From positions 1 through 58,269 of the IMG/VR virus record IMGVR_UViG_3300027782_000098: a stretch of DNA of 58,269 bases; one strand, 5' to 3'. A model generated the notes under the pieces. It did not search any database. It worked only from the letters and a program-made list of their open reading frames with translations, and was not told the origin of the DNA. This DNA is from a virus. A program made the position numbers and the translations under genes. Shown piece after piece: positions 2,490 to 44,886 of the stretch (positions are counted from its first letter, which is position 1; the number at the start of each line of letters is the position of its first letter).

Positions 2490-3212
2490 TTATTTTCCCA
2501 AATAATCGGTTAATTTTCTCATTAAGTCAACTCCTTTGGATTGGAATTCCGAATTTTCAGGAGATTTGTGTCTTTTTTCTTCTTCTAAATTTTCCTCATA
2601 CTTACTTCTATCATCAGGATTACTAAACAAATAAGCTCCTGGTGTAGATGGAGAAGATACTAAGTCAAAACAAATTAATTCAAAATCATCTTGTACTTCA
2701 TTTCTTTCACCCACTTTTTTAAGTGAACCAACACCTCTTGAAGAAACTCCCATTGTAACACCTTGTCTCATTAAGTTAGCGGCTTGGTCTCCTTTAGTAG
2801 AAACAATACCTCTTTCATGAAATCCTGGAGATGTTAACAATTTAAGTTTACCCATCAAAATATTTTTATCCCACCATATATCAGTAATGATGTGAGATAC
2901 TCTATCTAAATCAATTAAAGACGATTCAGGGTGGTTTAACTCCGATGTTGATAAACCTTTAGCTATTGCCTTTTTATAGTTATCTGCTTCCCTCTTTAAT
3001 ATTCTTTCAGGATAAAATCTTCCATTTCTGTTAGGTGTGTCATATTTCTGTAATACAGCGTAAAATTCAAAAGGATTTCTGTAATCTAAATTAGCAGCTT
3101 CTTTTAACATGTCAGCATTACGAATATCTTTTGGAGAAACCCAACCAGCATCCATTTCAATCAATATACCATGACCTACTTCACTAGCTTCTAATATTCT
3201 TAAATTTTTCAT
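2490..3212 (-). CDS. Prohead core protease (T4 gp21-like, peptidase U9 type)
   Basis: 240 residues. T4 gp21-type proteases cleave scaffold and capsid proteins during head maturation. The motif NRNGRFYPERIL (about 61-72), a His in ELNHPE (H94) and a Ser in GVSSRG (S157/S158) fit the His/Ser serine-protease arrangement of this family. C-terminal residues 200-240 are charged and may be trimmed by autoprocessing. Position between portal and scaffold matches T4 order (20, 21, 22, 23). Confidence 0.88.
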   Translation of the reverse strand: MKNLRILEASEVGHGILIEMDAGWVSPKDIRNADMLKEAANLDYRNPFEFYAVLQKYDTPNRNGRFYPERILKREADNYKKAIAKGLSTSELNHPESSLIDLDRVSHIITDIWWDKNILMGKLKLLTSPGFHERGIVSTKGDQAANLMRQGVTMGVSSRGVGSLKKVGERNEVQDDFELICFDLVSSPSTPGAYLFSNPDDRSKYEENLEEEKRHKSPENSEFQSKGVDLMRKLTDYLGK

Positions 3213-3257: not shown

Positions 3258-3689
3258 TTATTCATTTTTTGATAGTGAAAATTCAAAGTATTTGTTCTTA
3301 ATTACATTTTCTTTAAATATACTTTTTATTATTTGTTTCACCGAATCTTTAATTTCAGATGATTTAAAATCCATTTCTTGAGTTGTGTATAAATTTACTT
3401 CTAAATTAAAAAATGATTTTTTACCGTGGGATATTCCACTTGTTCGTAAATCTAAATCCACAATACTGTGTTCTTTAAATAAATCTAAATTAATTGAACT
3501 ATAAACTGAATGTTTTATTTCTCTGTTTAAATTACCTACGATTCTGTTCCAATTATCGTATTCTGTTTTTGGAGTTACCCATGATTGTATGTTTATGTAT
3601 AGTGATTTTAAATTTTTAGAATCAACTGTACCGTATACAGATTTTATTGGGCTGTATAGATTTAGCTTTACACTTTTTCCTTTTTTCAT
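3258..3689 (-). CDS. Hypothetical protein in head gene cluster
   Basis: 143 residues, basic N-terminus (MKKGKSVKLNLYSP), alternating hydrophobic pattern suggesting a beta-rich fold. No recognised family or membrane segment. It lies between the prohead protease and a helical head protein and starts 96 nt from the divergent bS21 gene. A small structural or assembly factor is possible, but no motif supports a function. Confidence 0.6.
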   Translation of the reverse strand: MKKGKSVKLNLYSPIKSVYGTVDSKNLKSLYINIQSWVTPKTEYDNWNRIVGNLNREIKHSVYSSINLDLFKEHSIVDLDLRTSGISHGKKSFFNLEVNLYTTQEMDFKSSEIKDSVKQIIKSIFKENVIKNKYFEFSLSKNE

Positions 3690-3785
3690 TAATCTTCATT
3701 TGTCAATGTTTATTTGTTTGTAAAAAAATAACGCAAATAAGTCCATTTGTCAAAATTTTTTAAATAATAAAGATATTTGTAATAT

Positions 3786-3974
3786 ATGTTAATAGTAGAA
3801 GTAAAAAAAGACGGTATTGAAAAGGCACTAAAAACTTTAAAATCTAAAGTAATTAAAACCAAACAGAATAAGATTCTATTTGATAAAAAAGAGTTTGTAA
3901 AAAAATCAGTGATTAAAAGGAATCAAAAACTAAAAGCCTCCTATATTCAAAAGAAAAATAGCGGATTAGATTGA
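3786..3974 (+). CDS. rpsU: Ribosomal protein bS21 homologue
   Basis: 62 residues, the usual length of Bacteroidota bS21. It begins MLIVEVKKDGIEKALKTLK, with the family's 'IEKALK' segment, then the basic block FVKKSVIKRNQKLKASYIQ that matches the conserved K-P-S-x-x-K-R-x-x-x-x-K-A-x-Y-I-Q region. bS21 binds the 30S platform next to the anti-Shine-Dalgarno; in Flavobacteria it helps hide the anti-SD. Phage-encoded bS21 is known from huge phages and is thought to replace the host copy. The gene is alone on the plus strand within a minus-strand head cluster, and its last 9 nt overlap the end of the next gene. Confidence 0.85.
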   Translation: MLIVEVKKDGIEKALKTLKSKVIKTKQNKILFDKKEFVKKSVIKRNQKLKASYIQKKNSGLD

Positions 3975-4664
3975 TTCTTCTAAATTTTTTAATTTAAGGA
4001 AATTTAATTGGTCGAACTTTTCAACTTTTAACCTATCAATCGTTTCAGATAATTTTGTTTTTAGTTCAAACTCTTCTTCTTTTTCAAGAATAACTTTAAG
4101 TTTGCTTATAGCACTTTCTCGGATAGTCTCGAATTTATTTTCAAGAGATGTCGAATCTTCACTCATTATTTGAATAAATTCTTTTTTAGAGTTTTCATCA
4201 AGAGTTTCAATGTAATTACTTAAAGTTTGATTTGCAATTCTAACCATAGATTTTAAAGGAATATTAATAGATTCTTTAACAATTCCACTTGTTGACGTTA
4301 GAACCTTAGTAATGTTTTTCTTTGATTTTATTCTTTCTAATAAATCCAATTTGTTTGTATAAACAAGAGCGTCAATGTCAGAATATTTGTTTTCAACAGA
4401 TTCTGATAATGTAGATGGCGTTTTAATATTTGGAATTAATTTTTGAATTAAACTAATACCTTCTTCTAAAAAATCCTTTGCATCCGATTCATTTAATCCT
4501 TGAGGACTACTCAATTGGTCGTACAATGAGTAAAGTTTTGACATAGTTTTATTATTCAAAACATTGTGTTTGAATTCTTTTAAAGACTTTTTGAATTCCT
4601 TTTCATCTCTGTAGGATTCAATAAGATTGTTCTCAATTATGGATTTAATTTTTCCGAATGTCAT
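3966..4664 (-). CDS. Helical hypothetical head-cluster protein
   Basis: 232 residues, largely alpha-helical and charged, starting MTFGKIKSIIENNLIES. The ATG at 4664 is chosen; an in-frame TTG at 4679 lies at the edge of the promoter box. It sits directly downstream of the portal gene, where T4 carries the small prohead-core genes 67 and 68, so a core or scaffold role is plausible. There is no sequence motif that proves this. Confidence 0.6.
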   Translation of the reverse strand: MTFGKIKSIIENNLIESYRDEKEFKKSLKEFKHNVLNNKTMSKLYSLYDQLSSPQGLNESDAKDFLEEGISLIQKLIPNIKTPSTLSESVENKYSDIDALVYTNKLDLLERIKSKKNITKVLTSTSGIVKESINIPLKSMVRIANQTLSNYIETLDENSKKEFIQIMSEDSTSLENKFETIRESAISKLKVILEKEEEFELKTKLSETIDRLKVEKFDQLNFLKLKNLEESI

Positions 4665-4687: not shown

Positions 4688-6544
4688 TTAGGAATTTAGT
4701 AACTTATCCAATTCTTTTGAAATTTCTCCTAAAGAATCTTGTCCTTGACCCAAATCTAAAAACGTAGACCCTTTGGTAAAGTTATTTTCTAATAAGATAT
4801 TCATATTCGCTCTCCTTGATTCAGGTGTCACTGCCGCCTCTTCTCCCCCTGCTGGTGGAGATGGTTCTCCCCCTGCTGGCGGTTCTCCACCACCTGATGG
4901 TTCAGGTGAACTAAACGCTCCAAGAGCTCCTCCACTTATTTCTTCTTCACCACCTTCTGTAGACGCAGTTGCGTTTGCCGTAACCCCTGATGGATTACCA
5001 TATAATTTGTCAATATTGTCAAATATACCCGTTTTAGTAATAACTGTAGGGGTTGCTTTAAGTTCTTCACCAACCGCTCTTTCAATTCTTTGTTGTTGTA
5101 AATCCAATCTAATTTCTTCATCAGAAAATCCAAAAATGTGTTTTTTAGCCCATGTTGAAGATACAGGTTGAATACCATTTCCTGGGTCTGCAACTAAATC
5201 TTTATATAGTAAAACTTTTTCTTTCCAAACATCAATCTTTAATAAATCCGCTTGTGTTGACGGATTTGTTAATCCTAATGTAAAATTTTGTAATTCATCT
5301 TCAAATCCTAATAAAAATAAGTGAACAATTGCAATTTTGTTCAATTCTGCAATCATACTTTTTTGGATTCTATTGATTGTACGAGCAAAACGTATGTCTT
5401 GTAATGATAAATTTTTACCATCACCCACAACTTCTTCAAAACCTAAAAATGCTTTAGGTACACGAAGAGCAGTTAATAATTTCTTTTGAATATACTCAAT
5501 ATCGGCAATCTCTGATAGGTTAGTTGCTCCAGGTAATGTTGTAATTGGGTCTGGTGCCGCAGGGTCACGAACAGGGATAAAGTAATCTTGGTCAACCGCC
5601 ATTTGGTTGAATCTCATGTCTACGTTACCTGTTTTAGAATCCACAACTTGTTCTCTTTTGAATTTGTTTGCAACACGATTTACATACGCTTCAACATCAT
5701 CGTCATTCATGTTTCCAACAAATACTTTGAACATTCTTCTTTCAGGTGCTCTTGATGTACGATAGATTAACATTGCGTCTTCAGATAACAATAGTTGTTT
5801 CCAAATACGTCTGGCTTTTTCCAACATAGAAGTACCATAAGGAAGTTTTCTATCATCACCTAATAATCTAAAGTGACCAATTTCCCATGACTGAAATTCC
5901 ATATTTCTATTCTTCCAAGTAAAATGAAGAGCCTTTTTATTTTCATCTTTTTCTTGAGTAATATCTACAGTAATTTTAGCGGCAACTCCAACCTCATGTC
6001 TTTCAATTTCAATTGTTGGTAATTGTTGACATCCAATAATACCTTTCTCAGGGTCTAATTTAAGATAAATAAAATTATCACCATACTTACAAGTGTTTCT
6101 TGTCCACATTGGTAAGTTGGTGTTAATATCTAAATTATTATTAAATAAATCTGCTAATACAGATTTAATTCTTTTTGATTCAGAATAGATTTGAAGAATA
6201 AAACCATCTTCATTAGTTGTTGTTGATTCTTCCGCATATATGTCTAACGCAGCTGAAATCTCAGGAGTATATTCCATTGATTCATAGTCGTATTGAGCAG
6301 ATAATCTTGATGGTTCATAGTAAATTGCCTGTGAGTACAAGTTATTTTCAACCTTAGCCCATTGATTTGTTAAATAATAGGTTTGCTGTGCTTGAAGTTT
6401 TTCTCTCTCATAATCATCACGATTTGGAGTACGCAGAAGTTCTTTTTTATCAAACTTAAAAGTTGGATAGTCCTGCTTCAGCAGTGAATTTGGGCCGAAT
6501 GTTTGGGATAGTCTCTGCCAGACCGTTAGATTATTATCACTCAT
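4688..6544 (-). CDS. Portal vertex protein (T4 gp20-like)
   Basis: 618 residues. Portal proteins form the dodecameric ring at the head vertex through which DNA is packaged. T4 gp20-type features include an N-terminal region with YEREKLQAQQTYYLTNQW, a segment SAALDIYAEESTT (about 93-105), the conserved WKQLLLSEDAMLIYRTSRAP region (about 240-260) and the LLTALRVPKAFLGFEE region (about 360-375). The C-terminal third carries a Gly/Pro/Glu-rich linker (about 535-585) unlike the compact core. The gene follows the terminase gene, as portal does in many myoviruses. Confidence 0.9.
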   Translation of the reverse strand: MSDNNLTVWQRLSQTFGPNSLLKQDYPTFKFDKKELLRTPNRDDYEREKLQAQQTYYLTNQWAKVENNLYSQAIYYEPSRLSAQYDYESMEYTPEISAALDIYAEESTTTNEDGFILQIYSESKRIKSVLADLFNNNLDINTNLPMWTRNTCKYGDNFIYLKLDPEKGIIGCQQLPTIEIERHEVGVAAKITVDITQEKDENKKALHFTWKNRNMEFQSWEIGHFRLLGDDRKLPYGTSMLEKARRIWKQLLLSEDAMLIYRTSRAPERRMFKVFVGNMNDDDVEAYVNRVANKFKREQVVDSKTGNVDMRFNQMAVDQDYFIPVRDPAAPDPITTLPGATNLSEIADIEYIQKKLLTALRVPKAFLGFEEVVGDGKNLSLQDIRFARTINRIQKSMIAELNKIAIVHLFLLGFEDELQNFTLGLTNPSTQADLLKIDVWKEKVLLYKDLVADPGNGIQPVSSTWAKKHIFGFSDEEIRLDLQQQRIERAVGEELKATPTVITKTGIFDNIDKLYGNPSGVTANATASTEGGEEEISGGALGAFSSPEPSGGGEPPAGGEPSPPAGGEEAAVTPESRRANMNILLENNFTKGSTFLDLGQGQDSLGEISKELDKLLNS

Positions 6545-6584: not shown

Positions 6585-8345
6585 TTACGCACCAAATAAC
6601 CATCCGTATTTTTGATAGTCGGACCTGGTTGCATCACCGTTATTACTTAAATTACCATTTCTACCCATTTGTGGTACCATTGGGTTAAAGAAGTCAGAAG
6701 AATTCTTATTTTCATTTACGTTAGTTGCCCATGAATTAATCATGGCTTTAGTATGATTGGTTACTTTTTCTAAAGATTGGAATGATTTTTCAGCAACATA
6801 TAACGCCATAGAAACCCCCATAATACAGTCATCATGGTGACCTTTTTGGTGGTCTGGTCTTCCGTTAATATAAATAAAAGTATTCATTTCGTTATATAGT
6901 CTGTTTGAATATACTTTAAATCCGTGTCTAACGTTTTCCTCAAATGCAGCAATAATTTGAACTCTTTTTGAGTTAAAATTAATGCCAGGTATTTTGTCAT
7001 TTATTTTTGGGTCCCACTTCCACTTATTACTTGTATCAACATTATCAACATACAAACCACCTTGGTAATTTAATTCTTGTAATTTTCTTGCAGTAGAAAT
7101 ACCCATACCTCCAGTAATATCAATAACGCAGTAAGCGTTATACATTGTTCCCCATTTGTAGGCAATTTCTGCTAACACATCAGGTGGTATTTTGGCAACA
7201 TATTCCAATACTTGTTCTCTTTCGTCAAAATCAATGATTTGGATACACGAGAAGTCCTCAGAATCCCCACGGGATACATCGACACCCATAACATATTTGT
7301 GACCGTTTACGGGTTCTTTAAATATCCATAGTGACCCTCCCATAAGTTTGGCTTGAGCATCTCGTAATGTATTTTTTGAAATGTTTTGCATTAATTCAGA
7401 TTCAAACACATTATCCCCTGAACCTAAGAAGTTACACTCCAACTCTTGGGCAACTTTTCTTCGGTCAAACTTTAATTTTTTAACCATACTTTCAAACCAT
7501 GCAGAACATGGTTTATATCCTTGGGAAATGTATTCGGTTACTACTGAGTGGTCTCTGTCGTATGGATTCTCCATAGACAAATTAATAATGTCTTTATCAG
7601 AATATTCTTCTCGGTTTAAAAAATAGTGTACTAAGTCATTAGTTTTAACCATATACAAATCTTTTGTATATCTTGGGTCACGATACCAAAACATTTCAGA
7701 TATTTTGAAATCGTTCATGTTTCTTAATGACTGGTCATAGATTTCATAATAGATTGGGTCATATCCGTTTGGAGTAGACACAACAATAACTTTACCTCCC
7801 GTAGATAGTGAAGCCATACAAGCAGACCAGAAATCTGAGTCCGCTTCAATAAACGCTGCCTCATCAAATACAAGAATTGTAGGTGTATAACCCCTCAAGG
7901 CATCTTTTGATGTTGCAACCGCCTTTACTTCACAATCGTTACTTAATTTGAAATGTCTTTGTGAATTTTTTTCTTTTGAAAACGTAACACCAACCCACGT
8001 AGGCCATTGTTCAGTAAAACCTCTTACTTTGTTAGCCATCTCCATTGATGTATCTAACTTGTTGGCAATAATAAGGATTTTTTCAGGTTTGTTCTTTTTA
8101 GCAAAAACTAATCGTTTTGATATCCAAGCCGCGGTTACGGTAGATACACCAGCCTGACGATACTTTAATGCAATGTTCTCATTATAAGTGTCGTAATCTT
8201 CTATTAAACTAACTTGGTCGGGGAATAAGTCCAAAGGGACATATTTGGATACAGTATTATCGTATGTTTGTAGATAAGTACGAAGCGCATAAGGAGTATT
8301 TCTCATGCACTTTGTAACTTCTATAATTAATTGTTCTCTATTCAC
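6585..8345 (-). CDS. Terminase large subunit (T4 gp17-like ATPase/nuclease)
   Basis: 586 residues. The enzyme pumps DNA into the prohead and cuts concatemers. The P-loop region reads RQAGVST (63-69), the Walker B ILVFDE (157-162), and a coupling motif STPNG follows at 190-194. The RNase-H-like nuclease has Asp in GVDVSRGD (D356), Asp in YCVIDITGG (D409) and the pair in GHHDDC (D505/D506). The P-loop lacks the usual GKT/GKS lysine (see findings). The start overlaps the end of the upstream gene's unit with a 6-nt gap, suggesting co-transcription. Confidence 0.93.
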   Translation of the reverse strand: MNREQLIIEVTKCMRNTPYALRTYLQTYDNTVSKYVPLDLFPDQVSLIEDYDTYNENIALKYRQAGVSTVTAAWISKRLVFAKKNKPEKILIIANKLDTSMEMANKVRGFTEQWPTWVGVTFSKEKNSQRHFKLSNDCEVKAVATSKDALRGYTPTILVFDEAAFIEADSDFWSACMASLSTGGKVIVVSTPNGYDPIYYEIYDQSLRNMNDFKISEMFWYRDPRYTKDLYMVKTNDLVHYFLNREEYSDKDIINLSMENPYDRDHSVVTEYISQGYKPCSAWFESMVKKLKFDRRKVAQELECNFLGSGDNVFESELMQNISKNTLRDAQAKLMGGSLWIFKEPVNGHKYVMGVDVSRGDSEDFSCIQIIDFDEREQVLEYVAKIPPDVLAEIAYKWGTMYNAYCVIDITGGMGISTARKLQELNYQGGLYVDNVDTSNKWKWDPKINDKIPGINFNSKRVQIIAAFEENVRHGFKVYSNRLYNEMNTFIYINGRPDHQKGHHDDCIMGVSMALYVAEKSFQSLEKVTNHTKAMINSWATNVNENKNSSDFFNPMVPQMGRNGNLSNNGDATRSDYQKYGWLFGA

Positions 8346-12023: not shown

Positions 12024-13388
12024 TTAGTTATTTAGTCCGTTAAAACCACCTAAGGCGATTCCGTTTAATTGTTGTATTGATACATTACCATTTTCATCTG
12101 TAAACACTGGATGTGGTGCAATTGCCCCATCAGGTGCTGTTCCACCACTAAATCCACCTAATATGTCTATAGTATACGCATATTGTTGGTCCGCAGAAAA
12201 TCCTGAAAAGAATTGTGTTGGACTTGGTGTTGGTGTAACTGCAGGTGTTCCTGTTTGTGTTGGTGTAACTGCAGGTGTTCCTGTTTGTGTTGGTGTTTTA
12301 GTTTGTGTTGGTGTAACTGCAGGTGTTCCTGTTTGTGTTGGTGTATTTGTTGGTGTTTTAGTATTTGTTGGTGTGTTGGTAGGTGTTTTAGTTACCGTAG
12401 CAGTATTTGTTGGTGTTTTAGTTTGCGTTGGTGTTTGCGTTGATGTTTTAGTTGGTGTTTGCGTTGATGTTTGAGTAGGTGTTCCTGTTTGAGTAGGTGT
12501 TCCTGTTTGAGTAGGTGTTCCTGTTTGAGTAGGTGTATTTGTTGGCGTTTTAGTTTGTGTTGTTGTATTTGTCGGTGTGTTGGTAGGAGTCTTAGTTGGT
12601 GTTGTAGTATTTGTTGGAGTAACACTTGAAGTAACTGATGGTGTTGGTGTTGGTAATGGACAAGAACCTATAGAAACATAAGAACCATCCCCTTGAACTA
12701 TAGTAACCTCAATAGAACAAACTACCAAAGTTTGATATGCTTGTATTTGTACTGTATTTAAAAATCCATCACAGTCTTTGTATATAAAAGTAGTGTTACC
12801 ACTACCACCATATAATTGATACGTTTTACACACTCCAGGAGTATTACTTGGTGTTACCGATATTGTTGGAGTATTACTTGGTGTTTGAGTTTGTGTTGCA
12901 GTATTACTTGGTGTTTGAGTTTGTGTTGCAGTATTACTTGGGGTTTGTGTTTTAGTCGGTGTTGTAGTGTTAGTAGGTGTATTTGTTGGTGTTGTAGTGT
13001 TAGTAGGTGTATTTGTTGGTGTTTTTGTTACGGTCGGAGTTGAAGTAACATTTGCAGTACCTGTCTGAGTAGGCGTGTTTGTTGGGGTCTTAGTTGGTGT
13101 TGGGGTCTTAGTTGGTGTTGCAGTATTAGTAGTTGTAACAGTAGGTGTTGGTGTTACAACAGCTTGGCAAGTTACACAATCACCATAATCAACTGACATA
13201 GTTAATACAGTATCAGTACCTGTGTTAGGTTCTGCATTATCAATGATATCGTAACATCCAGGTGTTGTTGCACCAACGAATGTTAAATAATAATTTCCAT
13301 TAACTGCAGGTAATGATGAACTATCAAAATCAATTAATTTTGCTGGTCCGCCACTACAAGCGCCTATAAGATATGTAACTAATGCCAT
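12024..13388 (-). CDS. Thr/Pro-repeat virion surface protein (fibre or adhesin-like)
   Basis: 454 residues. Two small Cys-containing beta-rich modules (about 1-78 and 182-235) are separated and followed by long low-complexity arrays of TPTNTPTQT-type repeats (about 80-180 and 238-395). A unique C-terminal end (about 400-454) finishes in GGFNGLNN. Thr/Pro repeats of this sort occur as extended stalks in phage fibres and bacterial surface proteins and may be glycosylated. No signal peptide is visible, which fits a virion rather than a secreted protein. The DNA repeats are a consequence of the coding repeats. Confidence 0.65.
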   Translation of the reverse strand: MALVTYLIGACSGGPAKLIDFDSSSLPAVNGNYYLTFVGATTPGCYDIIDNAEPNTGTDTVLTMSVDYGDCVTCQAVVTPTPTVTTTNTATPTKTPTPTKTPTNTPTQTGTANVTSTPTVTKTPTNTPTNTTTPTNTPTNTTTPTKTQTPSNTATQTQTPSNTATQTQTPSNTPTISVTPSNTPGVCKTYQLYGGSGNTTFIYKDCDGFLNTVQIQAYQTLVVCSIEVTIVQGDGSYVSIGSCPLPTPTPSVTSSVTPTNTTTPTKTPTNTPTNTTTQTKTPTNTPTQTGTPTQTGTPTQTGTPTQTSTQTPTKTSTQTPTQTKTPTNTATVTKTPTNTPTNTKTPTNTPTQTGTPAVTPTQTKTPTQTGTPAVTPTQTGTPAVTPTPSPTQFFSGFSADQQYAYTIDILGGFSGGTAPDGAIAPHPVFTDENGNVSIQQLNGIALGGFNGLNN

Positions 13389-15359: not shown

Positions 15360-17375
15360 ATGAACGACTTAATGGACGATGACGACAAAATGATGAGTAA
15401 GAAACAAAAATCATCAACAGATTCAAACACACCTGTGTTAGACAATTTCAGTAGAGACTTAAACAGACTTGCTGAAGAAGGTAAACTTGACCCTGTTATT
15501 GGTCGTGACCGAGAAATCTTAAGGATTGCACAAATCCTTTCTCGTAGAAAGAAAAATAATCCAATTATTATTGGTGAACCTGGTTGTGGTAAAACGGCAC
15601 TTGTTGAAGGTTTAGCAATTAAAATTGTAAATGGGGAATGTCCTCGTAATTTGGTTGATAAACGTATTGTTAATCTTGATTTAACTTCAGTTGTTGCAGG
15701 TACCAAATACCGTGGACAATTTGAGGAAAGAATGAAAGTGATTATTGAAGAACTTCATGCTAACCCAAATATTATCGTATTCATTGATGAAATTCATACT
15801 TTGGTTGGGTCAGGTAATTCTTCAGGTTCTATGGATGGTTCAAACATCTTCAAACCAGCGCTTTCTCGTGGTGAATTACAATGTATTGGAGCTACTACAT
15901 TAGATGAGTTCCGTAAGAATATTGAAAAAGACGGGGCATTGGAACGTAGATTCCAAAAAGTAATTGTTGAACCTTCATCAGTTGAAGAAACAATTCAAAT
16001 CCTTAAGAATGTTCGTGACAAATACGAATCATTCCATAATGTAAACTATAGTGATGAAATAATTGAGACTTGTGTTAAACTTGCAGACCGTTATATCACA
16101 GACCGTGAGTTCCCTGACAAAGCCTTTGATATCTTGGACGAGGTTGGAGCGAGAATGCAAACTGACTTAAAAGTTCCTGAAGTTATTGAAGACCTTAAAA
16201 AGAAGGCTGCAGAAATCAAACAACAAAAGATTGATGTTGTTAAAAAACAAAATTACGAGCAAGCGGCAGAACTTCGTGATAAGGAAAAGAAAATTCTAAC
16301 CAAACTTGACCAAGAGAAACAAAAGTTTGAAGACCAATTATCAAAAGAAAAACAAACTATCTTATTAGAGAATGTTTATGATGTTGTTTCAAACATGACT
16401 AAGATTCCTGTAAGTAAAATGAGTGTTGATGATTCTAAAGCATTGTTAGATTTAGACAAAACTTTGATTGACAAAGTTATTGGTCAAAACGATGCGGTTG
16501 TTAAGATTGCAAAATCAATCAAAAGAAACCGTTTAGGTATTAAAGACCCTAACCGTCCAATTGGTTCATTTGTATTCTTAGGGTCAACTGGTGTTGGTAA
16601 AACATATTTAGCAAAACAATTGGCTAAAGAAATGTTTGGTTCAGAGGATTCACTTATTCGTGTGGATATGTCTGAATACCAAGAAAAACACACTGTATCT
16701 AAATTGGTAGGAGCTCCTCCAGGATATGTAGGTTATGAAGAAGGTGGATTATTGACTGAAAAAGTTAAAAACAAACCATATTCAGTTATTTTATTTGATG
16801 AAGTTGAGAAAGCCCACAAAGATGTTTTCACAATCTTACTTCAAATCTTAGATGATGGACATGTTACTGATAGTTTAGGTCGTAAGATTAACTTCAAGAA
16901 TACCTTGATTATCTTGACATCAAACTTAGGAGTTAAAAAATTACAAGACTTTGGTACAGGTATTGGATTTTCTTCTAACACTTACAGTAATGAAGAGGCT
17001 AAGAAACAAATCTTAATGAAAGAGATGAAAAATTTCTTTTCTCCTGAATTCATTAACCGTATTGATGATACAATTGTATTTAACTCTTTAAGTCCTGAAG
17101 ACATCAAGAAAATTACTGACATTGAGTTGAAAAAGTTGATGTCTCGTCTTTCAGATATGAAATACAAAATTAGTTATGATGAAACATTGGTTGAATACTT
17201 AGCTAAGATTGGATTTGACGAATTGTTTGGAGCTCGTCCATTGAAAAGAGCTATTCAAGATAAGGTTGAGGATTTATTATCTGAAGAAGTTCTAACAGGT
17301 AAGATGATTGAGGGTAAAACCTACCTCATTAAAGTTGTAGATGAGAATGTAGTTGTTCAAAAGAAAGGGCGATAA
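15360..17375 (+). CDS. ClpC/ClpA-like AAA+ unfoldase lacking the N-domain
   Basis: 671 residues, two AAA+ modules. D1: Walker A GEPGCGKT (72-79), Walker B FIDE (141-144). D2: Walker A GSTGVGKT (408-415), Walker B LFDE (478-481), sensor region RPEF-like SPEFINRID (561-569). A short ClpC-type middle region (about 270-335) contains NYEQAAELRDKEK, a UVR-like motif. The tripeptide IGF at 535-537 sits where Clp ATPases dock on ClpP. The usual N-terminal adaptor-binding domain (about 150 residues) is missing, replaced by 25 charged residues. Phage ClpP is encoded at 44206. The upstream palindromes suggest repression. Confidence 0.92.
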   Translation: MNDLMDDDDKMMSKKQKSSTDSNTPVLDNFSRDLNRLAEEGKLDPVIGRDREILRIAQILSRRKKNNPIIIGEPGCGKTALVEGLAIKIVNGECPRNLVDKRIVNLDLTSVVAGTKYRGQFEERMKVIIEELHANPNIIVFIDEIHTLVGSGNSSGSMDGSNIFKPALSRGELQCIGATTLDEFRKNIEKDGALERRFQKVIVEPSSVEETIQILKNVRDKYESFHNVNYSDEIIETCVKLADRYITDREFPDKAFDILDEVGARMQTDLKVPEVIEDLKKKAAEIKQQKIDVVKKQNYEQAAELRDKEKKILTKLDQEKQKFEDQLSKEKQTILLENVYDVVSNMTKIPVSKMSVDDSKALLDLDKTLIDKVIGQNDAVVKIAKSIKRNRLGIKDPNRPIGSFVFLGSTGVGKTYLAKQLAKEMFGSEDSLIRVDMSEYQEKHTVSKLVGAPPGYVGYEEGGLLTEKVKNKPYSVILFDEVEKAHKDVFTILLQILDDGHVTDSLGRKINFKNTLIILTSNLGVKKLQDFGTGIGFSSNTYSNEEAKKQILMKEMKNFFSPEFINRIDDTIVFNSLSPEDIKKITDIELKKLMSRLSDMKYKISYDETLVEYLAKIGFDELFGARPLKRAIQDKVEDLLSEEVLTGKMIEGKTYLIKVVDENVVVQKKGR

Positions 17376-17419: not shown

Positions 17420-18169
17420 ATGAGAGACTTAATTAAGAAAGTTTTATTAGAGACCGTTAAAGATGGTAAAGTTATCTGCGATAATTGTGGATGGTCTTGG
17501 GATATTGCCGATGGTGGGGATGATTCATATGTATGTCATGAATGTGGTCATGATAACACACCAAAATCATCAAATTTTGACAGGTTAGTTAACCATTTTA
17601 AAAACTATTTTCCTGACGAACAAAAAAATAAAGTTTCTGAAATTAAAGATTTTGTCAAAGATTATATCCAAGAAAATAATTTCACTATTAAATTTTTAAA
17701 TGCATGTCCTGGTTATTCTGGTGTTAGAACAAGAGACCAAATCATTATTTGTGCACCTATGAATATGTTAACTATAGGAGATTTTCTATACACCATATTT
17801 CACGAAATAAGACATGAAGAACAAATGACTAAGTTCAAATTAGAAAACCCTTTATCAGGTGATTTAGAAGATTTTGAAACTTTGTATGAAAAATACTGGA
17901 ACTTAGAATTAGATGCGGATAGATTTGCAAAAGAAATGATTGCAAAATTAGTGATTAAACTTAATATACCTATTGAGTTTGCAAAACAACAATTTACGTT
18001 ATCTCAATATATTGAAAATTATCCGTTAATGTCAAAAATGGTTGAAATGTCTTTAAAGAACATTATTACTCAAATTAAACAAATGAAAAAATCGGGTGAG
18101 GAATATACTGATATTGCCGACCACCCGATGGTTAAAAAATATATAGATAAGTTAGAAAGTTTTATTTAA
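17420..18169 (+). CDS. Zinc-ribbon, HExxH metallopeptidase-like protein
   Basis: 249 residues. An N-terminal zinc ribbon has CDNC (20-23) and CHEC (39-42). A gluzincin-like core has HEIRH (H128, E129, H132) and a downstream ELDAD (163-167) that could give the third ligand. This resembles phage and SprT-like metallopeptidases, although the family is uncertain. The ATG at 17420 is preferred over the in-frame TTG at 17417. It is convergent with the M20 peptidase gene, overlapping it by 4 nt. Confidence 0.7.
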   Translation: MRDLIKKVLLETVKDGKVICDNCGWSWDIADGGDDSYVCHECGHDNTPKSSNFDRLVNHFKNYFPDEQKNKVSEIKDFVKDYIQENNFTIKFLNACPGYSGVRTRDQIIICAPMNMLTIGDFLYTIFHEIRHEEQMTKFKLENPLSGDLEDFETLYEKYWNLELDADRFAKEMIAKLVIKLNIPIEFAKQQFTLSQYIENYPLMSKMVEMSLKNIITQIKQMKKSGEEYTDIADHPMVKKYIDKLESFI

Positions 18170-19008
18170 AAAACACTTCTTGTTCTCCAATCGTATGGAG
18201 CGGATTTTTTAAAGTGTAATTTGTGACCAAGGTTTTCAATCATTTTTCTACCCATTTCAATTCCATTAAAAACATCTTCAACAACAACATATTCATTTTT
18301 TGAATGATATTGGTAATACCCAATTGAGAAATTAATACAAGAGAAATCAAATTTACCTCTTAACGCATAGACATCTGTATAAGGGTGAACCATATATCTC
18401 ATATGTTCGTTATTCATACCTTCAGTCAATACTTTATCGCAAGTTTCAAAAAACTCAGTGTCTCTGTCAAATAATACTTGGCCAAAACATCTTTCAGTAA
18501 TCATCCAGTTTTCAGGTGCGTCAAATTGAATTCCGTAACCAACATTTTTAAAGAAGTCGGGTTTTGCTTTCATAGAACCATGACAACCTGTTTCTTCAGA
18601 TACAAAGAAAGCTGCTTTCAAATAAGGTAATTCCTTTAACAAAGTTAAACATGCGAATACCCCACACTTATCATCACCACCAATACCTGTAGGGTTTCCT
18701 TCGTCATTATATGCCTTATAAGATAATTTTAATTCTTTCTGAGCATTTAATAACATCTCTTCACGAATATTAATTGTATCAATATTGTGTACAGTATCTG
18801 TGTGTGAAATTACACAAGGAAAATAAAAATCTTCAGGTATTAAAGGGGATTCTTGTTTTGTTGCATAAACATTATTATGTTCATCAACATAATGTTCAAT
18901 ATTGTTTTCGGTTAACCATTTAACCAAAAATGCTACCATTCTTTCTTCTTGATATGTGACGGTTGGGACACTTAAAACGTCCTTAAGTAATTCTGTATTT
19001 TTTATCAT
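18166..19008 (-). CDS. M20-type zinc aminopeptidase (PepT-like)
   Basis: 280 residues. Metal-binding motifs of clan MH appear in order: HTDTVH (about 69-74), GIGGDDKCG (about 107-115, bridging Asp), SEETGCHG (about 137-144, catalytic Glu), a later Asp in QFDAPEN, and a final His in YQYHSKNEYV (about 234-243). PepT-like enzymes remove residues from short peptides, so this could recycle peptides made by the Clp protease. It is shorter than PepT (about 400 residues) and seems to lack the dimerisation insert. Confidence 0.82.
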   Translation of the reverse strand: MIKNTELLKDVLSVPTVTYQEERMVAFLVKWLTENNIEHYVDEHNNVYATKQESPLIPEDFYFPCVISHTDTVHNIDTINIREEMLLNAQKELKLSYKAYNDEGNPTGIGGDDKCGVFACLTLLKELPYLKAAFFVSEETGCHGSMKAKPDFFKNVGYGIQFDAPENWMITERCFGQVLFDRDTEFFETCDKVLTEGMNNEHMRYMVHPYTDVYALRGKFDFSCINFSIGYYQYHSKNEYVVVEDVFNGIEMGRKMIENLGHKLHFKKSAPYDWRTRSVF

Positions 19009-24010: not shown

Positions 24011-24586
24011 ATGAAAGTAATATTTTTAGACCACGATGGAGTGATATGTTTATCAACCGAGTGGGGAGGTCGGTTTAAGAAGCAAAAAGAATGGGGTGGT
24101 CGTAAATTATCTATGACTAATTCAGAAATGCCATTAGAATACCGTTTTGATAATTTCAATAAAAAGGCTATTAATGTACTTAATGAAATTATAGAAGAAA
24201 CAGGTGCTGAAATTGTTGTATCTTCAGATTGGAAACGATGGGCAAATGTTGAAGAAATGGGAGAATATTACGAATCACAAGGAATCAATAAAAAACCAAT
24301 CTCATTAACACCTAATTTAGGTCAATGTACTTGGTATAATGGTATGACGTGGATTTGGTCTCCAAGATGGGATTTAGAAATGACTCGTGTTATTGAGATT
24401 AAACAATATCTACATGACCATCCTGAAATTACTCATTGGGTTGCAATTGATGATTTAGATATGGGTAAAAATGGTGAGGATTGGAAAGATTGGGGACTTG
24501 ATAATTTTGTATTAACACCAAGAGGAGCTGAAGGTATTAAACAATCAGGGATAAAAGAAAAAGTATTAAAATTTTTAAATGATTAA
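24011..24586 (+). CDS. HAD-superfamily phosphatase, RNA-repair (SAK) type
   Basis: 191 residues. Motif I FLDHDGV (5-11) with the two catalytic Asp, motif II-like VVSSDWK (about 73-79), motif IV-like VAIDDLD (about 144-150). This pattern matches the HAD domain found in 'Swiss army knife' RNA-repair proteins and in phage 5'/3' end-healing enzymes. It could remove 3'-phosphates from cleaved tRNA ahead of ligation. Leaderless-type promoter; its stop codon overlaps the next start by 8 nt. Confidence 0.78.
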   Translation: MKVIFLDHDGVICLSTEWGGRFKKQKEWGGRKLSMTNSEMPLEYRFDNFNKKAINVLNEIIEETGAEIVVSSDWKRWANVEEMGEYYESQGINKKPISLTPNLGQCTWYNGMTWIWSPRWDLEMTRVIEIKQYLHDHPEITHWVAIDDLDMGKNGEDWKDWGLDNFVLTPRGAEGIKQSGIKEKVLKFLND

Positions 24587-27499: not shown

Positions 27500-28000
27500 T
27501 TAATTACCAACTTTCCAAGCGAAGTTTAAAATCTTTCTTTTTTTAGTTGCATCTTCAGTGTTACCAATTACAACACCATCTTTAATTGTAAATGCATGTC
27601 TATTAACACACATTACATAAGTCCCTTTTGGGTATTTTTTAATAAAGGTACCTACAGTCATTTTACGATTAACTTTTTCACCTTTTACAGTAACCGTGTA
27701 ATCAAGGGTGTTAAAAGATGAGTATTCAACTGGTCTGCCCATTTGTTTACAACATTTACGACCAATACGAGTACGGTCTTTTGCAAATTTATTCATACCA
27801 GGGATGAATCCAAAAGTACCTTGTTTTGGTTTACGTCCAAATTTATCGGCAACAAATTTATGCGCTTTGTCATAATCAATCTCAAATGCCGATGCAATTG
27901 CACGAACAACACAATCATTAGTTTCACTTTTGGCAATCGCAGATTCACTATAACCTTTAATCGCCTCTGATGTCTTACAATATGGTAGTTGATTTTTCAT
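27500..28000 (-). CDS. Papain-like cysteine peptidase-like protein
   Basis: 166 residues. NDCVVRAIASAFEIDYDKAH (about 28-47) provides a candidate catalytic Cys at the start of a helix; VNRHAFTIKDGVVIGN (about 132-147) provides a His and a following Asp/Asn. This Cys...His...Asp/Asn order occurs in papain-like phage proteins and C39-type domains. Substrate unknown. Leaderless-type promoter. Confidence 0.6.
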   Translation of the reverse strand: MKNQLPYCKTSEAIKGYSESAIAKSETNDCVVRAIASAFEIDYDKAHKFVADKFGRKPKQGTFGFIPGMNKFAKDRTRIGRKCCKQMGRPVEYSSFNTLDYTVTVKGEKVNRKMTVGTFIKKYPKGTYVMCVNRHAFTIKDGVVIGNTEDATKKRKILNFAWKVGN

Positions 28001-28035: not shown

Positions 28036-28045
28036 ATAAAATGTG

Positions 28046-28131
28046 CGGAAAGTGAGGGGCTCGAACCCTCGCGACTTTGACATCCTACCTGTTTAGCAAA
28101 CAGGCCCCTTCACCAACTTGGGTAACTTTCC
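28046..28131 (-). tRNA. tRNA-Ser(GCT)
   Basis: Acceptor GGAAAGT/ACTTTCC, long variable arm, anticodon stem CCTGT/ACAGG with loop TTGCTAA. CCA not encoded. It abuts the methyltransferase stop codon. Confidence 0.93.
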
Positions 28132-28709
28132 TATTTTTTAAAATACCAGGTCGCAAACTTTTCTTCCGTGGTATTAATTTTATATCCTTTATTGTTTGCA
28201 AATTCAATAACTGCTGAATTTACACCATACTTTCCAAGATATAAATTTTCATAATAAACATCAACATTCTTATCATCATCAGGTTTAAAGTTATCTAACC
28301 AATCATGACCTGAGAATAGTCCTCCTTTTTTTAATTTTGACCACCAACATTCAAGGTCTTTTTTAACTTCAAGATATGAATGATTTCCGTCAATATATAT
28401 AAAATCAAAATGTTCGTCAGGAAAGAATTTTGATGCAATATCCGATTTATTTTTAACAACTAAAACTCTATCGTCAAATTCCTTAATATTTTCTTTAAAC
28501 ACTGAAAACACTTCATTGAAATTTTTAAAGTTACATGGTTCATTATAATTATGAATTTCTTGATTATCCCAATAATCAACACACACCAGTTTACCGTCCC
28601 AATTTTTTAAAATATTACAAGCGTTTTCGCCGTATTCTACTCCAATTTCAACACCAATATTATACCCATTAGTTTTTAAAAATAATGGTAATTCATTTCT
28701 GTGTTTCAT
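28131..28709 (-). CDS. Class I SAM-dependent methyltransferase
   Basis: 192 residues. Motif I IGVEIGVEYGENA (about 18-30), an acidic end to strand 2 (VCVDYWD), and FDFIYIDGNHSYLEVKKDL (about 101-119) match the Methyltransf_24-like group. These act on small molecules or sugars more often than DNA; substrate not inferable. It lies inside the tRNA array, so tRNA methylation is possible but not supported by a motif. Confidence 0.78.
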   Translation of the reverse strand: MKHRNELPLFLKTNGYNIGVEIGVEYGENACNILKNWDGKLVCVDYWDNQEIHNYNEPCNFKNFNEVFSVFKENIKEFDDRVLVVKNKSDIASKFFPDEHFDFIYIDGNHSYLEVKKDLECWWSKLKKGGLFSGHDWLDNFKPDDDKNVDVYYENLYLGKYGVNSAVIEFANNKGYKINTTEEKFATWYFKK

Positions 28710-29023
28710 TATAACATTTGTGATATCATATAAGATAATTTATATCCTGTAAACGCACCCAATGCAGATGGGATTGGGAATACAATTAACTTACCTAAAT
28801 GTGTAACATATTTTGGTCGGTTAACAATCCTACCCATAAATAAATAATATGTTATATAACCAAGTAATACACCAATATCAATACGAGTTGAAATAAAAAC
28901 TACAAGTATTGCACCCAAAAAACCAAAAATAAAATTATCTCGAACACCCTCCCAAATTTCAGAAGTTGTGGCATCTTTATACTCTTTAACAATTTTTTTA
29001 ATTGTAACCTTTTCATTTTTCAT
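28709..29023 (-). CDS. Small membrane protein
   Basis: 104 residues starting MKNEKVTIKKIVKEY. Two or three hydrophobic segments: FGFLGAILVVFISTRI, GVLLGYITYYLFMG and VFPIPSALGAFTGYKLSYM. Longer upstream reading would cross the tRNA-Ile gene and is rejected. Function unknown; last nucleotide shared with the methyltransferase start. Confidence 0.65.
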   Translation of the reverse strand: MKNEKVTIKKIVKEYKDATTSEIWEGVRDNFIFGFLGAILVVFISTRIDIGVLLGYITYYLFMGRIVNRPKYVTHLGKLIVFPIPSALGAFTGYKLSYMISQML

Positions 29024-29037
29024 AATCATTTTTTTTG

Positions 29038-29111
29038 TCGGAAAGGAAGGAATTGAACCTTCGACCTTTTGTGTATAAGACAACTGCTCTCACCACCTGA
29101 GCTACATTCCG
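29038..29111 (-). tRNA. tRNA-Ile(TAT)
   Basis: Acceptor CGGAATG/CTTTCCG (one mismatch), D-arm GCTC/GAGC, anticodon loop CTTATAC. Reads AUA, a frequent codon in AT-rich DNA. Confidence 0.88.
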
Positions 29112-29120
29112 TTTAAATAT

Positions 29121-29156
29121 AAAAAAAATCCCCCTGATTTTCAACTCAGAGGGATT
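29121..29156 (-). terminator. Rho-independent terminator
   Basis: AATCCCTCTGA/TCAGGGGGATT stem on the minus strand followed by eight T; ends the ferritin-like gene transcript. Confidence 0.85.
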
Positions 29157-29179
29157 ATTAATAATAATAAATTTTAATA

Positions 29180-29638
29180 TTATTTTAAGAACCTTAATTT
29201 ATATAACGTACTATAAATTAATTCTTGAATTGTGTCAATTTGATTTTGGATAAAAGATTCTTTAACTGCTTTTCTGTTTTTTTCAATATTATCATCTAAC
29301 CCTTTAAAGTAAGATATCAGTTGTTCTGTTGATTTATAATCAACCATTTTGATGGTTTTATAACCAGTCAATAAATCGTGTTTTCCTTGGAAACTTTCAA
29401 CGATTCCGTCTATCAATTCACCTATCTCTTCATAATATCCACCTAACGCCATATGCTCAGCAAATGATGATTGTGATTTTGTTTGCCAATGAAATACATG
29501 AACTTGACTTCTTGAGTGAAGTAAAGTTGAAATCATATCAACAATATCAGCTGTTTCGGTTGACCCTTTTTTCTCAGCTTCATTCAATTGTATTACTTTA
29601 AACAATTGTTCTTTTGTTAGCGTTACTCTTTTTTCCAT
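29180..29638 (-). CDS. Ferritin/Dps-like four-helix protein
   Basis: 152 residues from the ATG at 29638. LLHSRSQVHVFHWQTKSQS, then AEHMALGGYYEEIGELIDG give the HxW...H...YE...E..D pattern of Dps/ferritin-like helices, as in the phage protein group annotated DUF5856. In Dps proteins this site binds iron and protects DNA; here metal binding is plausible. Upstream in-frame codons lie in the tRNA-Met gene and are rejected. Confidence 0.68.
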   Translation of the reverse strand: MEKRVTLTKEQLFKVIQLNEAEKKGSTETADIVDMISTLLHSRSQVHVFHWQTKSQSSFAEHMALGGYYEEIGELIDGIVESFQGKHDLLTGYKTIKMVDYKSTEQLISYFKGLDDNIEKNRKAVKESFIQNQIDTIQELIYSTLYKLRFLK

Positions 29639-29641
29639 GTC

Positions 29642-29650
29642 AATAAATAT
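29642..29650 (-). promoter_or_regulatory. Phage-type promoter box (ATATTTATT)
   Basis: NTATTTATN box 3 nt upstream of the ferritin-like ATG. Confidence 0.45.
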
Positions 29651-29667
29651 ACAAGTATTTGGAAATG

Positions 29668-29739
29668 TTGTGATGGAAGGAATTGAACCTTCGACTTCTT
29701 GGATATGAATCAAGTGTTCTACCACTGAACTACATCACA
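29668..29739 (-). tRNA. tRNA-Met or Ile2 (CAT)
   Basis: Acceptor TGTGATG/CATCACA, D-arm GTTC/GAAC, anticodon loop TTCATAT. Whether it is elongator Met or lysidine-modified Ile cannot be decided by eye; tRNA-Ile(TAT) already reads AUA. Confidence 0.85.
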
Positions 29740-29744
29740 ATATG

Positions 29745-29816
29745 TGGTTTTGGAAGGATTCGAACCCTCACTCTGAAATCCGTAGTTTCATGTGCTGTCC
29801 ATTACACCACAAAACC
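29745..29816 (-). tRNA. tRNA-Arg(ACG)
   Basis: Acceptor GGTTTTG/CAAAACC, anticodon stem TGAAA/TTTCA with loop CTACGGA. Reads CGN after A34 deamination. Confidence 0.92.
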
Positions 29817-29819
29817 ATT

Positions 29820-29892
29820 GTTGCCCCTCAAGGATTCGAACCTCAACCGTCTGGACCAAAACCAGATGTCCTGCCGTTAGACGAAAGGGCAA
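29820..29892 (-). tRNA. tRNA-Gln(TTG)
   Basis: Acceptor TTGCCCT/GGGGCAA, anticodon stem TCTGG/CCAGA with loop TTTTGGT. Confidence 0.92.
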
Positions 29893-29897
29893 TTTAG

Positions 29898-29978
29898 TGG
29901 GAGTAGTAGGACTCGAACCTACGAACTCTTAGAGGGCTGATTTACAGTCAGCTGCACTTGCCGCTATGCGATACTCCC
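29898..29978 (-). tRNA. tRNA-Tyr(GTA)
   Basis: Acceptor GGGAGTA/TACTCCC, anticodon stem GCTGA/TCAGC with loop CTGTAAA, long variable arm. Confidence 0.93.
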
Positions 29979-30109
29979 AAATAAGGAAAAGAGAAGATGG
30001 TTCAGTGGACATCTCTTTTTACAATTAGCGTTACTCTGACAGTTAAAACTCCCCCATAACTACGAACTACTGACACGTTAACGTTACGGACTTCCCTAAT
30101 CAACCTTAG
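29979..30109 (-). repeat. Structured tRNA spacer closed by an inverted repeat
   Basis: 131 nt between tRNA-Tyr and tRNA-Trp. Ends pair (TAAGG at 29982, CCTTA at 30104), an 8-bp hairpin AAAAGAGA/TCTCTTTT lies near the left end, and ACGTTAACGT is palindromic. No gene seen. Confidence 0.45.
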
Positions 30110-30182
30110 CACGCCTGAGAGGACTCGAACCTCTGACTCCTAGTTTTGGAGACTAGAGCTCTACCAACTGAGCTACAGACGT
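30110..30182 (-). tRNA. tRNA-Trp(CCA)
   Basis: Acceptor ACGTCTG/CAGGCGT, anticodon stem CTAGT/ACTAG with loop CTCCAAA. Confidence 0.93.
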
Positions 30183-30191
30183 GTATTATTG

Positions 30192-30263
30192 AGGTCGGTA
30201 TAGGAATTGAACCTATGTTGATAGTTTTGCAGACTATCGCCTAAACCACTCGGCCAACCGACC
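30192..30263 (-). tRNA. tRNA-Cys(GCA)
   Basis: Acceptor GGTCGGT/ACCGACC, anticodon stem ATAGT/ACTAT with loop CTGCAAA. Confidence 0.93.
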
Positions 30264-30268
30264 TTTTA

Positions 30269-30345
30269 GTGTCCCCGATGGGTCTCGAACCCATGACCCC
30301 TAAATTAAAAGTTTAGTGCTCTAAACCAACTGAGCTACGAAGACA
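30269..30345 (-). tRNA. tRNA-Lys(TTT)
   Basis: Acceptor TGTCTTC/GGGGACA with G-U pairs, anticodon stem CTAAA/TTTAG with loop CTTTTAA. Confidence 0.92.
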
Positions 30346-30349
30346 TTAA

Positions 30350-30425
30350 GTTGTCACAGATGGACTCGAACCATCGACCTTCTCGGTATCAGCGAGATGC
30401 TCTAACCAACTGAGCTATGAGACAA
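30350..30425 (-). tRNA. tRNA-Ile(GAT)
   Basis: Acceptor TTGTCTC/GTGACAA (one mismatch), anticodon stem TCTCG/CGAGA with loop CTGATAC. Confidence 0.9.
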
Positions 30426-30498
30426 TAAAAAGTAAAGTATGACGTATGCTCGTCCTGTAGTTGTTTCCATCCGCGGACTCACGGTTCTCTTTACTTGG
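30426..30498 (-). repeat. Structured tRNA spacer closed by an 8-bp inverted repeat
   Basis: AAGTAAAG (30430-30437) pairs exactly with CTTTACTT (30489-30496), spanning nearly the whole 73-nt spacer between tRNA-Ile and tRNA-Ser. Inside, GACG/CGTC forms a small hairpin. Confidence 0.5.
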
Positions 30499-30586
30499 CG
30501 GTGAGAGTAGGATTCGAACCCACGGTACCCTTTCAGGTACTTCGGTTTTCAAGACCGACGCAATCGACCAACTCTGCCATCTCACC
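30499..30586 (-). tRNA. tRNA-Ser(TGA)
   Basis: Acceptor GGTGAGA/TCTCACC, anticodon CGGT/ACCG stem with loop CTTGAAA, long variable arm. Confidence 0.93.
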
Positions 30587-30721
30587 ATAATATAGTGTTT
30601 TGGTCAACCACTCGCATCCCACCAATTTATTGTATCAAACTTTCTGTAGTGCAAACGATTAACTCTCCTACTACTCATTTTCAACTCACTTGCCTAAGCC
30701 TTGTCCGTTGTAAACACTTTT
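30587..30721 (-). repeat. Structured tRNA spacer closed by an inverted repeat
   Basis: AGTGTTT (30594-30600) pairs with AAACACT (30712-30718), again spanning almost the whole spacer. No gene seen. Confidence 0.45.
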
Positions 30722-30796
30722 GGGTAACTAACGGGAATCGAACCCGTGACACCTTGAACCACAATCAAGTGCTCTGCCAACTGAGCTATAGCTACC
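30722..30796 (-). tRNA. tRNA-His(GTG)
   Basis: Acceptor GGTAGCT/AGTTACC, anticodon stem CTTGA/TCAAG with loop TTGTGGT, C discriminator as in His tRNAs. Confidence 0.93.
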
Positions 30797-31220: not shown

Positions 31221-31293
31221 TGGAACGGGGCGGAATTGAACCGCCGACACCTTGAGCTTCAATCAAGTGCTCTACCTACTGAGCTACCGTTCC
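31221..31293 (-). tRNA. tRNA-Phe(GAA), copy 1
   Basis: Acceptor GGAACGG/CCGTTCC, anticodon stem CTTGA/TCAAG with loop TTGAAGC. Confidence 0.93.
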
Positions 31294-31713: not shown

Positions 31714-31726
31714 AATAATCTTTTAT

Positions 31727-31734
31727 TATAAATA
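31727..31734 (-). promoter_or_regulatory. Phage-type promoter box (ATATTTATA)
   Basis: NTATTTATN box 13 nt upstream of the HNH gene start. Confidence 0.45.
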
Positions 31735-31776
31735 TCTCAAAAGGACTGAAAAGTTAAAAAAGTTTTCAGTTTTTTG

Positions 31777-32269: not shown

Positions 32270-32341
32270 TAGTCCGTACGGGAATCGAACCCGTCTTTTA
32301 TCCGTGAAAGGGATATGTCCTAACCGATAGACGAACGGACC
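32270..32341 (-). tRNA. tRNA-Glu(TTC)
   Basis: Acceptor GGTCCGT/ACGGACT, anticodon stem TATCC/GGATA with loop CTTTCAC. Confidence 0.93.
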
Positions 32342-44205: not shown

Positions 44206-44886
44206 ATGAATATAGGACAAGAATTCCAAGACTATTATGTTAAACATTTAGGTAAAAGCTCGTTAGATTTACACTACGCAGCAAACCAAATTGAATCGTC
44301 AATGACCCCATACATTTTGGAGGAAAGAGAAATGAGGGTAACTCAAATGGACATCTTTTCAAGATTAATGAGAGACCGTTTGTTATGGGTTGCAGGTCCT
44401 GTTAATGACCACATGTCAACAATCGTACAGGCTCAATTAATGTTCTTAGATTCAACAGATAAAGCCGATATTACAATGCACATTGATTCACCTGGTGGAA
44501 GTGTTAAATCAGGGTTATCTATGGTTGATGTTATGGAATATATTTCTTGTGACATTAGGACAGTAAACACAGGTATGGCGGCTTCAATGGGTTCAGTTTT
44601 GTTAGGTGCGGGAACAAAAGGTAAACGTTCATCATTACGTTTCTCTAAGACAATGTTACACCAATCATCAGGAGGAGCTTATGGTAATATCCAAGACGCT
44701 CGTATTAATATGATTGAGTGGGAAAAAACTAATAAAATTCTTTTTGATTTGTTGGGGTCTTATTGTGGTAAAACTGCGGAACAAGTTACTTTAGATGCGA
44801 CTCGTGATTTATGGTTAAGCGCTGATGAAGCTCTTGAGTATGGTATTATTGACGAGATTGTTAAAACAAAAAAGAAGGGTAATTAA
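44206..44886 (+). CDS. clpP: ClpP-family serine protease
   Basis: 226 residues from the ATG at 44206; longer frames upstream run through the previous gene. Catalytic triad intact: Ser127 in GMAASMGS, His152 in MLHQSSGG, Asp201 in ATRDLWLSADEALEYG. The oligomerisation and oxyanion segments MHIDSPGGSV (91-100) are typical. The N-terminal 35 residues are longer than in mature ClpP and could be a propeptide or altered axial loop. It can form the proteolytic chamber for the ClpC-like ATPase at 15360 or act with host Clp ATPases. Confidence 0.93.
   Translation: MNIGQEFQDYYVKHLGKSSLDLHYAANQIESSMTPYILEEREMRVTQMDIFSRLMRDRLLWVAGPVNDHMSTIVQAQLMFLDSTDKADITMHIDSPGGSVKSGLSMVDVMEYISCDIRTVNTGMAASMGSVLLGAGTKGKRSSLRFSKTMLHQSSGGAYGNIQDARINMIEWEKTNKILFDLLGSYCGKTAEQVTLDATRDLWLSADEALEYGIIDEIVKTKKKGN

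Follow-up and report, generated by a model that had tools for sequence, protein, structure and literature searches.

A conserved phage bS21 gene without an SD sequence, placed tail to tail with a neighbor among T4-type packaging and head genes

Introduction

Why would a phage keep a gene for a ribosomal protein in the midst of its head genes? The question is raised by the stretch of DNA analyzed here (the window), which is the whole of IMG/VR virus record IMGVR_UViG_3300027782_000098 (58,269 bases; classed as linear) and in which bS21 is alone on the plus strand amid packaging and head genes of the T4 type. Chen et al. (2022) described 47 genomes of freshwater Bacteroidetes bS21 phages, the complete ones being 293 to 331 kbp, noted that bS21 position 54 is aromatic, and put forward a model in which the phage protein joins host ribosomes and, late in infection, picks out phage transcripts (PMC9723584). 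Mizuno et al. (2019) found that bS21 of pelagiphage HTVC008M is incorporated into Escherichia coli 70S ribosomes, whose in vitro activity was about 5% (PMC6375957). On the host side, McNutt et al. (2023) showed that rpsU of Flavobacterium johnsoniae is autoregulated: in ribosomes lacking bS21 the anti-SD is free, the extended SD of rpsU is read better, and SD-less mRNAs are read worse; Flavobacterium ribosomes already initiate on SD-less mRNAs (PMC9976891). Since both the arrangement and the idea of replacement have been published (PMC9723584; core idea also in PMC6375957), our finding is not new in kind.

Results

Our searches confirmed the bS21 identity proposed in the initial annotation, including the exact coordinates, the length, and the location on the plus strand among minus-strand genes. 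The product, MLIVEVKKDGIEKALKTLKSKVIKTKQNKILFDKKEFVKKSVIKRNQKLKASYIQKKNSGLD, matches Pfam Ribosomal_S21 (PF01165) over residues 4 to 53 with an E value of 2.2e-6 and 27.7 bits (cutoff, 27); scored as a genome hit, it reaches 26.7, slightly below the cutoff. No profile of another family was preferred, as the sole other Pfam match was DUF5776 with an E value of 0.13. The NCBIfam equivalog TIGR00030 gave 15.8 bits and did not reach its cutoff of 28.95, so the protein is a divergent homolog whose functional equivalence is not certified by TIGR00030. PHROGs, which has no family for this bS21, returned nothing significant. The closest solved relative is the F. johnsoniae bS21 chain in ribosome 7jil (E value of 4.6e-6, residues 1 to 60). 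The predicted structure comprises helices at 11 to 36 and 40 to 60 (mean pLDDT of 83), and a Foldseek search with this model gave three PDB matches, all of them ribosome entries, each with an E value above 1 and none significant.

Relatives of this bS21 are encoded in 372 IMG/VR stretches, the best 80 of the 372 at 77 to 100% identity. Between 34 close relatives, the median dN was 0.084 versus a dS of 0.90 (median dN/dS of about 0.1); the gene is under purifying selection and is maintained. A chance open reading frame is rejected on the Pfam and 7jil matches, the IMG/VR relatives, and dN/dS. We conclude that the gene encodes a true, conserved phage bS21 of an already published kind.

bS21 is the sole credible plus-strand gene from position 1 to about 15,360 (Table 1). 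The window's terminase large subunit (TerL) is 93 to 95% identical to those of five IMG/VR relatives, and its nearest counterpart in the phage collection is about 27% identical. A two-AAA-domain Clp ATPase, which has a GIGF loop, and a ClpP are encoded further along and may form a phage Clp protease pair. The window also holds 25 tRNA genes (region 28045-38754) and, at 24011-24586 and 56171-57226, genes for an RNA ligase of the T4 Rnl1 type and for an RNA-repair-type HAD protein, which together suggest tRNA repair against host nucleases. Two adjacent carbamoyltransferase genes lie at 40281-43540.

Table 1. Features of the bS21 locus and of the rest of the window
Feature	Position	Strand	Evidence or remark
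Prohead core protease, T4 gp21 type	2490..3212	-	PF03420, 1.2e-22; phrog_207
Divergent neighbor, 143 aa, conserved (MKKGKSVKLN...)	3258..3689	-	T4 gp68 is a positional guess (size and place)
Conserved TTGTCAAAAT block, possible -33-type element	3747..3756	+	Mean of 1.76 bits
Conserved promoter-like box GATATTTGTAATAT	3772..3785	+	Ends at start codon; no SD
bS21 gene, 62 aa	3786..3974	+	Pfam, PDB match, dN/dS, per-residue comparison
Tail-to-tail antisense overlap of bS21 and convergent neighbor, 9 bp	3966..3974	both	
Convergent neighbor, 232 aa, helical	3966..4664	-	Equivalent of bS21_CN of Chen et al.
Portal, T4 gp20 type	4688..6544	-	PF07230, 6.3e-76
Terminase large subunit	6585..8306	-	PF03237, 2.3e-13; phrog_2, 8.8e-38
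Clp ATPase, two AAA domains	15360..17375	+	Pfam; possible ClpP-docking loop GIGF at ~534-537
ClpP protease	44206..44886	+	PF00574, 1.1e-54
Genes with TAHHTTTG 4 nt before ATG	18166-19008(-), 24011-24586, 27500-28000(-), 48124-48660, 53381-53878, 56171-57226		

With respect to individual residues, Tyr53 of the window protein is the equivalent of F. johnsoniae Tyr54, and a Tyr occupies this position in 100% of the compared phage bS21 sequences of both clades. Numbered as in F. johnsoniae, the residues retained by the phage clade are Tyr54, Arg46, Lys40, Lys51, and Ala15-Leu16-Lys17, and its invariant changes are R21 to S, F23 to V, D24 to I, G27 to K, T28 to Q, and R33 to F, of which the V, I, K, and Q substitutions (positions 23, 24, 27, and 28) are common to the window clade and a distant phage clade. 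Thus, the anti-SD-closing residue is retained while the stretch at the helix hinge is altered, in agreement with Chen et al.; a phage bS21 that frees the anti-SD is not supported.

The tree of bS21 with host sequences (149 proteins) placed the whole phage set among Flavobacteriaceae. Within it, the window clade forms one group (100/97), which joins the distant phage clade (99/91) and the bS21 of a 735-kb phage (95/92); having only 64 columns and long branches that meet, the tree is limited in placing the exact host group. A second line of support for the host phylum comes from phage promoters of the form TTTG-N19-TAHHTTTG, which is the Bacteroidota promoter type (PMC6847099), and the Bacteroidota link made in the initial annotation is thus upheld by both tree and promoters. 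A 72-kb viral contig (L162, 4001-4198) encodes a bS21 that is 77% identical to that of F. johnsoniae over 56 residues, apparently has His at the Tyr54 position, and is preceded by a host-like -7 box located further upstream; it is probably a separate, more recent acquisition.

The overlap between the 3' end of bS21 and its convergent neighbor is exactly 9 bp long in all close relatives in which both genes were found. It measures 4 or 17 bp in additional relatives from one clade, and in the remaining relatives the genes lie 15 to 332 bp apart. We found no terminator-like site between the two genes. The initial annotation had described an overlap with a head gene: the overlap stands, while the label does not, since the neighbor matched no family in Pfam or PHROGs and belongs to the head cluster only through its location, with the portal on one side and the prohead protease on the other. 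Its AlphaFold model (pLDDT of 63) was too weak for use. Because the overlap couples the last residues of both proteins, it may account for part of the C-terminal conservation reported by Chen et al.

A search with the neighbor protein, independent of bS21, found bS21 on the opposite strand and in the same place in 70 of 72 checkable loci. The two other loci, L336 (downstream of 3054) and L357 (downstream of 3726), keep the neighbor and the head genes and lack bS21. As these two phages occupy separate places inside the bS21-bearing phages on the neighbor-protein tree, two losses of bS21 are likely. They show that bS21 is dispensable in some settings, and an obligate partnership between bS21_CN and bS21 is not supported.

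We furthermore analyzed the control signals of the bS21 gene, using the duplexfold pairing energy with the 16S tail as an SD test, which is not the method of PMC9976891 itself. Upstream of Flavobacterium rpsU the median was -17.2 kcal/mol, and 80 of 80 sampled genes were below -9, versus a median of -0.5, a minimum of -2.7 kcal/mol, and 0 of 31 below -9 upstream of bS21 in the window's phage clade. An extended SD (pairing below -13 kcal/mol, as for autoregulated rpsU) was found nowhere in this clade. In a wider Bacteroidia sample, rpsU had an SD in about 13 of 60 diverse genomes, an approximate count given a few miscalled starts.

The region directly ahead of the start codon is conserved like a promoter. 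The box has the form GATATTTGTAnTA(A)T, running into the ATG, and averages 1.80 bits per column over 34 loci versus 0.93 to 1.32 in the variable stretches that flank it; in phage bS21 loci it is paired with a conserved upstream block, TTGTCAAAA. The TTGTCAAAAT block is 22 to 23 nt from the box, whereas the corresponding distance in class A promoters of the window is 19. The promoter-like box ends 6 to 7 nt ahead of the start codon, and the F. johnsoniae -7 box lies 4 to 5 nt before the transcription start site (PMC6847099); the predicted start implies a leader of 0 to 3 nt and hence a nearly leaderless bS21 mRNA. The box sequence GATATTTG is one base off TAHHTTTG, at the near-invariant first T, and also one base off the late-type TATTTAT, which in the distant clade is found roughly 13 to 20 nt before the bS21 ATG. 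In the 735-kb phage (L273, 3001), an SD-like AAAGGAGGATAA precedes the bS21 ATG, unlike in the window clade. A scan of the AT-rich window for sigma-70-type promoters was uninformative (8 found versus 10.4 in shuffles).

The lack of an SD extends to the phage genes in general, as the initial annotation had held: SD-like words before window genes numbered 14 versus 16.7 expected, i.e., not above chance, and were likewise at chance level in G001, a 182-kb relative. The class of probably leaderless genes proposed there also gained support, since TAHHTTTG lies exactly 4 nt before the ATG in 6 of 78 window genes (expected, 0.05) and 8 of 176 G001 genes (expected, 0.09). Among 224 Flavobacterium genes from rpsU neighborhoods, which are not mutually independent, this spacing occurred 0 times and the box was present within 60 nt upstream in 115. 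The genes with this spacing are predicted to yield leaderless mRNAs and to be read by host RNA polymerase. TATTTAT occurs 4 to 6 nt before the ATG in 9 window genes (expected, 0.2) and 16 G001 genes (expected, 0.5). It precedes the protease and convergent neighbor genes, 12024-13388(-), 46680-47768(-), and many more genes, both structural and of other kinds, and is a candidate phage late promoter with two spacings (4 to 6 and 12 to 18 nt before the ATG). Judged by these motifs, about a fifth of the window genes look leaderless or nearly so. Leaders of late phage genes are short, A-rich, and devoid of an SD, and in general resemble those of Flavobacterium mRNAs (PMC6847099).

Discussion

The window fits all traits shared by the phages of Chen et al. 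(2022) that are visible in 58 kb. As in their clades a to e, bS21 is on the strand opposite the TerL, portal, prohead protease, and capsid genes, and as in their phages, which have 5 to 25 tRNAs, there are a convergent hypothetical neighbor, a retained Tyr54, a Clp protease, and a Bacteroidetes host. Absent from that study and seen here are the lack of an SD together with a promoter-like box that would leave almost no leader, the antisense overlap of 9 bp, and the two bS21-less phages with the convergent neighbor. Moreover, the arrangement is found here at a TerL identity of 61 to 69% to the window, whereas Chen et al. observed no bS21 at less than about 70% TerL identity to theirs.

The phage protein matches cellular Flavobacterium bS21 (7jil; PMC9976891) in length, in its two predicted helices, and in Tyr54 and the conserved basic residues, and its clade adjoins Flavobacteriaceae on the tree. 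Unlike the cellular protein, that of the window (~40% identity) has the phage-invariant V22, I23, K26, and Q27, and, unlike rpsU, the gene lies in a phage head cluster and, without an SD, shows nothing of the feedback signal. The bS21 of pelagiphage HTVC008M (PMC6375957) is also phage-borne and is incorporated into E. coli 70S ribosomes, but it was taken up from an alphaproteobacterial host and belongs to a different phage lineage.

What, then, might this protein do? In the explanation that we favor, a bS21 of old Flavobacteriales-like origin, retained in a single lineage of T4-type Bacteroidota phages, would enter the host 30S subunit in place of host bS21, which assembles late and is exchangeable. 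With its Tyr54 equivalent, it would hold the anti-SD closed and so keep ribosomes fit to initiate on mRNAs that lack an SD, such as those of the phage. The bS21 mRNA, having no SD and a predicted leader of 0 to 3 nt, would itself escape the feedback by which the SD restrains host rpsU expression; as host synthesis of bS21 declines, the phage would thereby keep ribosomes replete with bS21 and filled with the phage form. Such replacement or replenishment of bS21 in the 30S subunit, with the anti-SD closed and the mRNA outside the host's SD feedback, is the best-supported mechanism, and we give it about an even chance of being correct. Because an rpsU SD is missing in many Bacteroidia, feedback escape would matter only in hosts that have one. 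Counted against this explanation are the SD-like word before bS21 in L273, the mismatches of the box to TAHHTTTG and TATTTAT, and the roughly 5% activity of ribosomes with pelagiphage bS21. An extended version, in which the phage Clp ATPase-ClpP pair would remove host bS21 and phage bS21 from its SD-less, nearly leaderless mRNA would refill the ribosomes, is a long shot, with the Clp ATPase as a candidate, unproven, for the removal.

The initial annotation, like Chen et al. (2022), had instead proposed specialized ribosomes, in which phage bS21 shifts mRNA choice toward phage transcripts. The phage-invariant hinge substitutions speak for such a shift, as they fall in the N-terminal helix region, described by Chen et al. 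as mRNA-facing (PMC9723584), but anti-SD closure is kept and we found no sequence feature that separates phage from host mRNAs. As Tyr54 is retained and Flavobacterium ribosomes are already capable of reading SD-less mRNAs, keeping ribosomes bS21-replete accounts for the data no less well than a new specificity would, and we consider the latter rather unlikely. Incorporation can also impair translation, as the low activity of ribosomes with pelagiphage bS21 indicates (PMC6375957), so phage bS21 could poison host translation while a phage factor rescues phage mRNAs. That assay, however, combined a pelagiphage protein with foreign ribosomes, and the gene studied here belongs to a cluster of head genes, which the phage must itself translate in bulk; shutoff of this kind seems improbable to us. 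We think even less of a role outside the ribosome, with bS21 either packaged into the head as a basic peptide or acting as a partner of bS21_CN. The fixed place in the head cluster, the co-occurrence with the neighbor in nearly all loci, and the similar phylogenies of bS21 and bS21_CN reported by Chen et al., who also speculate on packaging (PMC9723584), are in its favor, but L336 and L357 retain the neighbor and head genes after what look like separate losses of bS21, and the residues kept in the phage protein are those kept in ribosomal bS21.

A separate question concerns timing. Chen et al. measured expression as bases mapped per gene, with strand unmentioned, and found bS21 at a level slightly lower than that of an opposite-strand gene, with which it was possibly cotranscribed (PMC9723584). 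Given the 9-bp tail overlap and the lack of a terminator-like site between the genes, antisense read-through from the convergent head-cluster gene could yield this picture, and the reported late expression might be read-through in part or in whole, with bS21 acting at another time. Against this stand the box ahead of bS21, which is conserved like a promoter, and the late-type TATTTAT box in the distant clade, which fits late expression. We therefore hold read-through to be a tentative reading, somewhat short of an even prospect.

Returning to the replacement and replenishment of bS21 in host ribosomes, our analysis makes the published idea of ribosome hijacking by phage bS21 sharper and testable. 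The level of bS21 in Flavobacterium is set by bS21-less ribosomes reading the SD of rpsU, and the phage gene is without that signal. L336 and L357, which belong to the same lineage and lack bS21, provide a natural comparison for its role. Should phage bS21 be present in the ribosomes of infected cells, the virus would be an example of escape from translational feedback on a ribosomal component.
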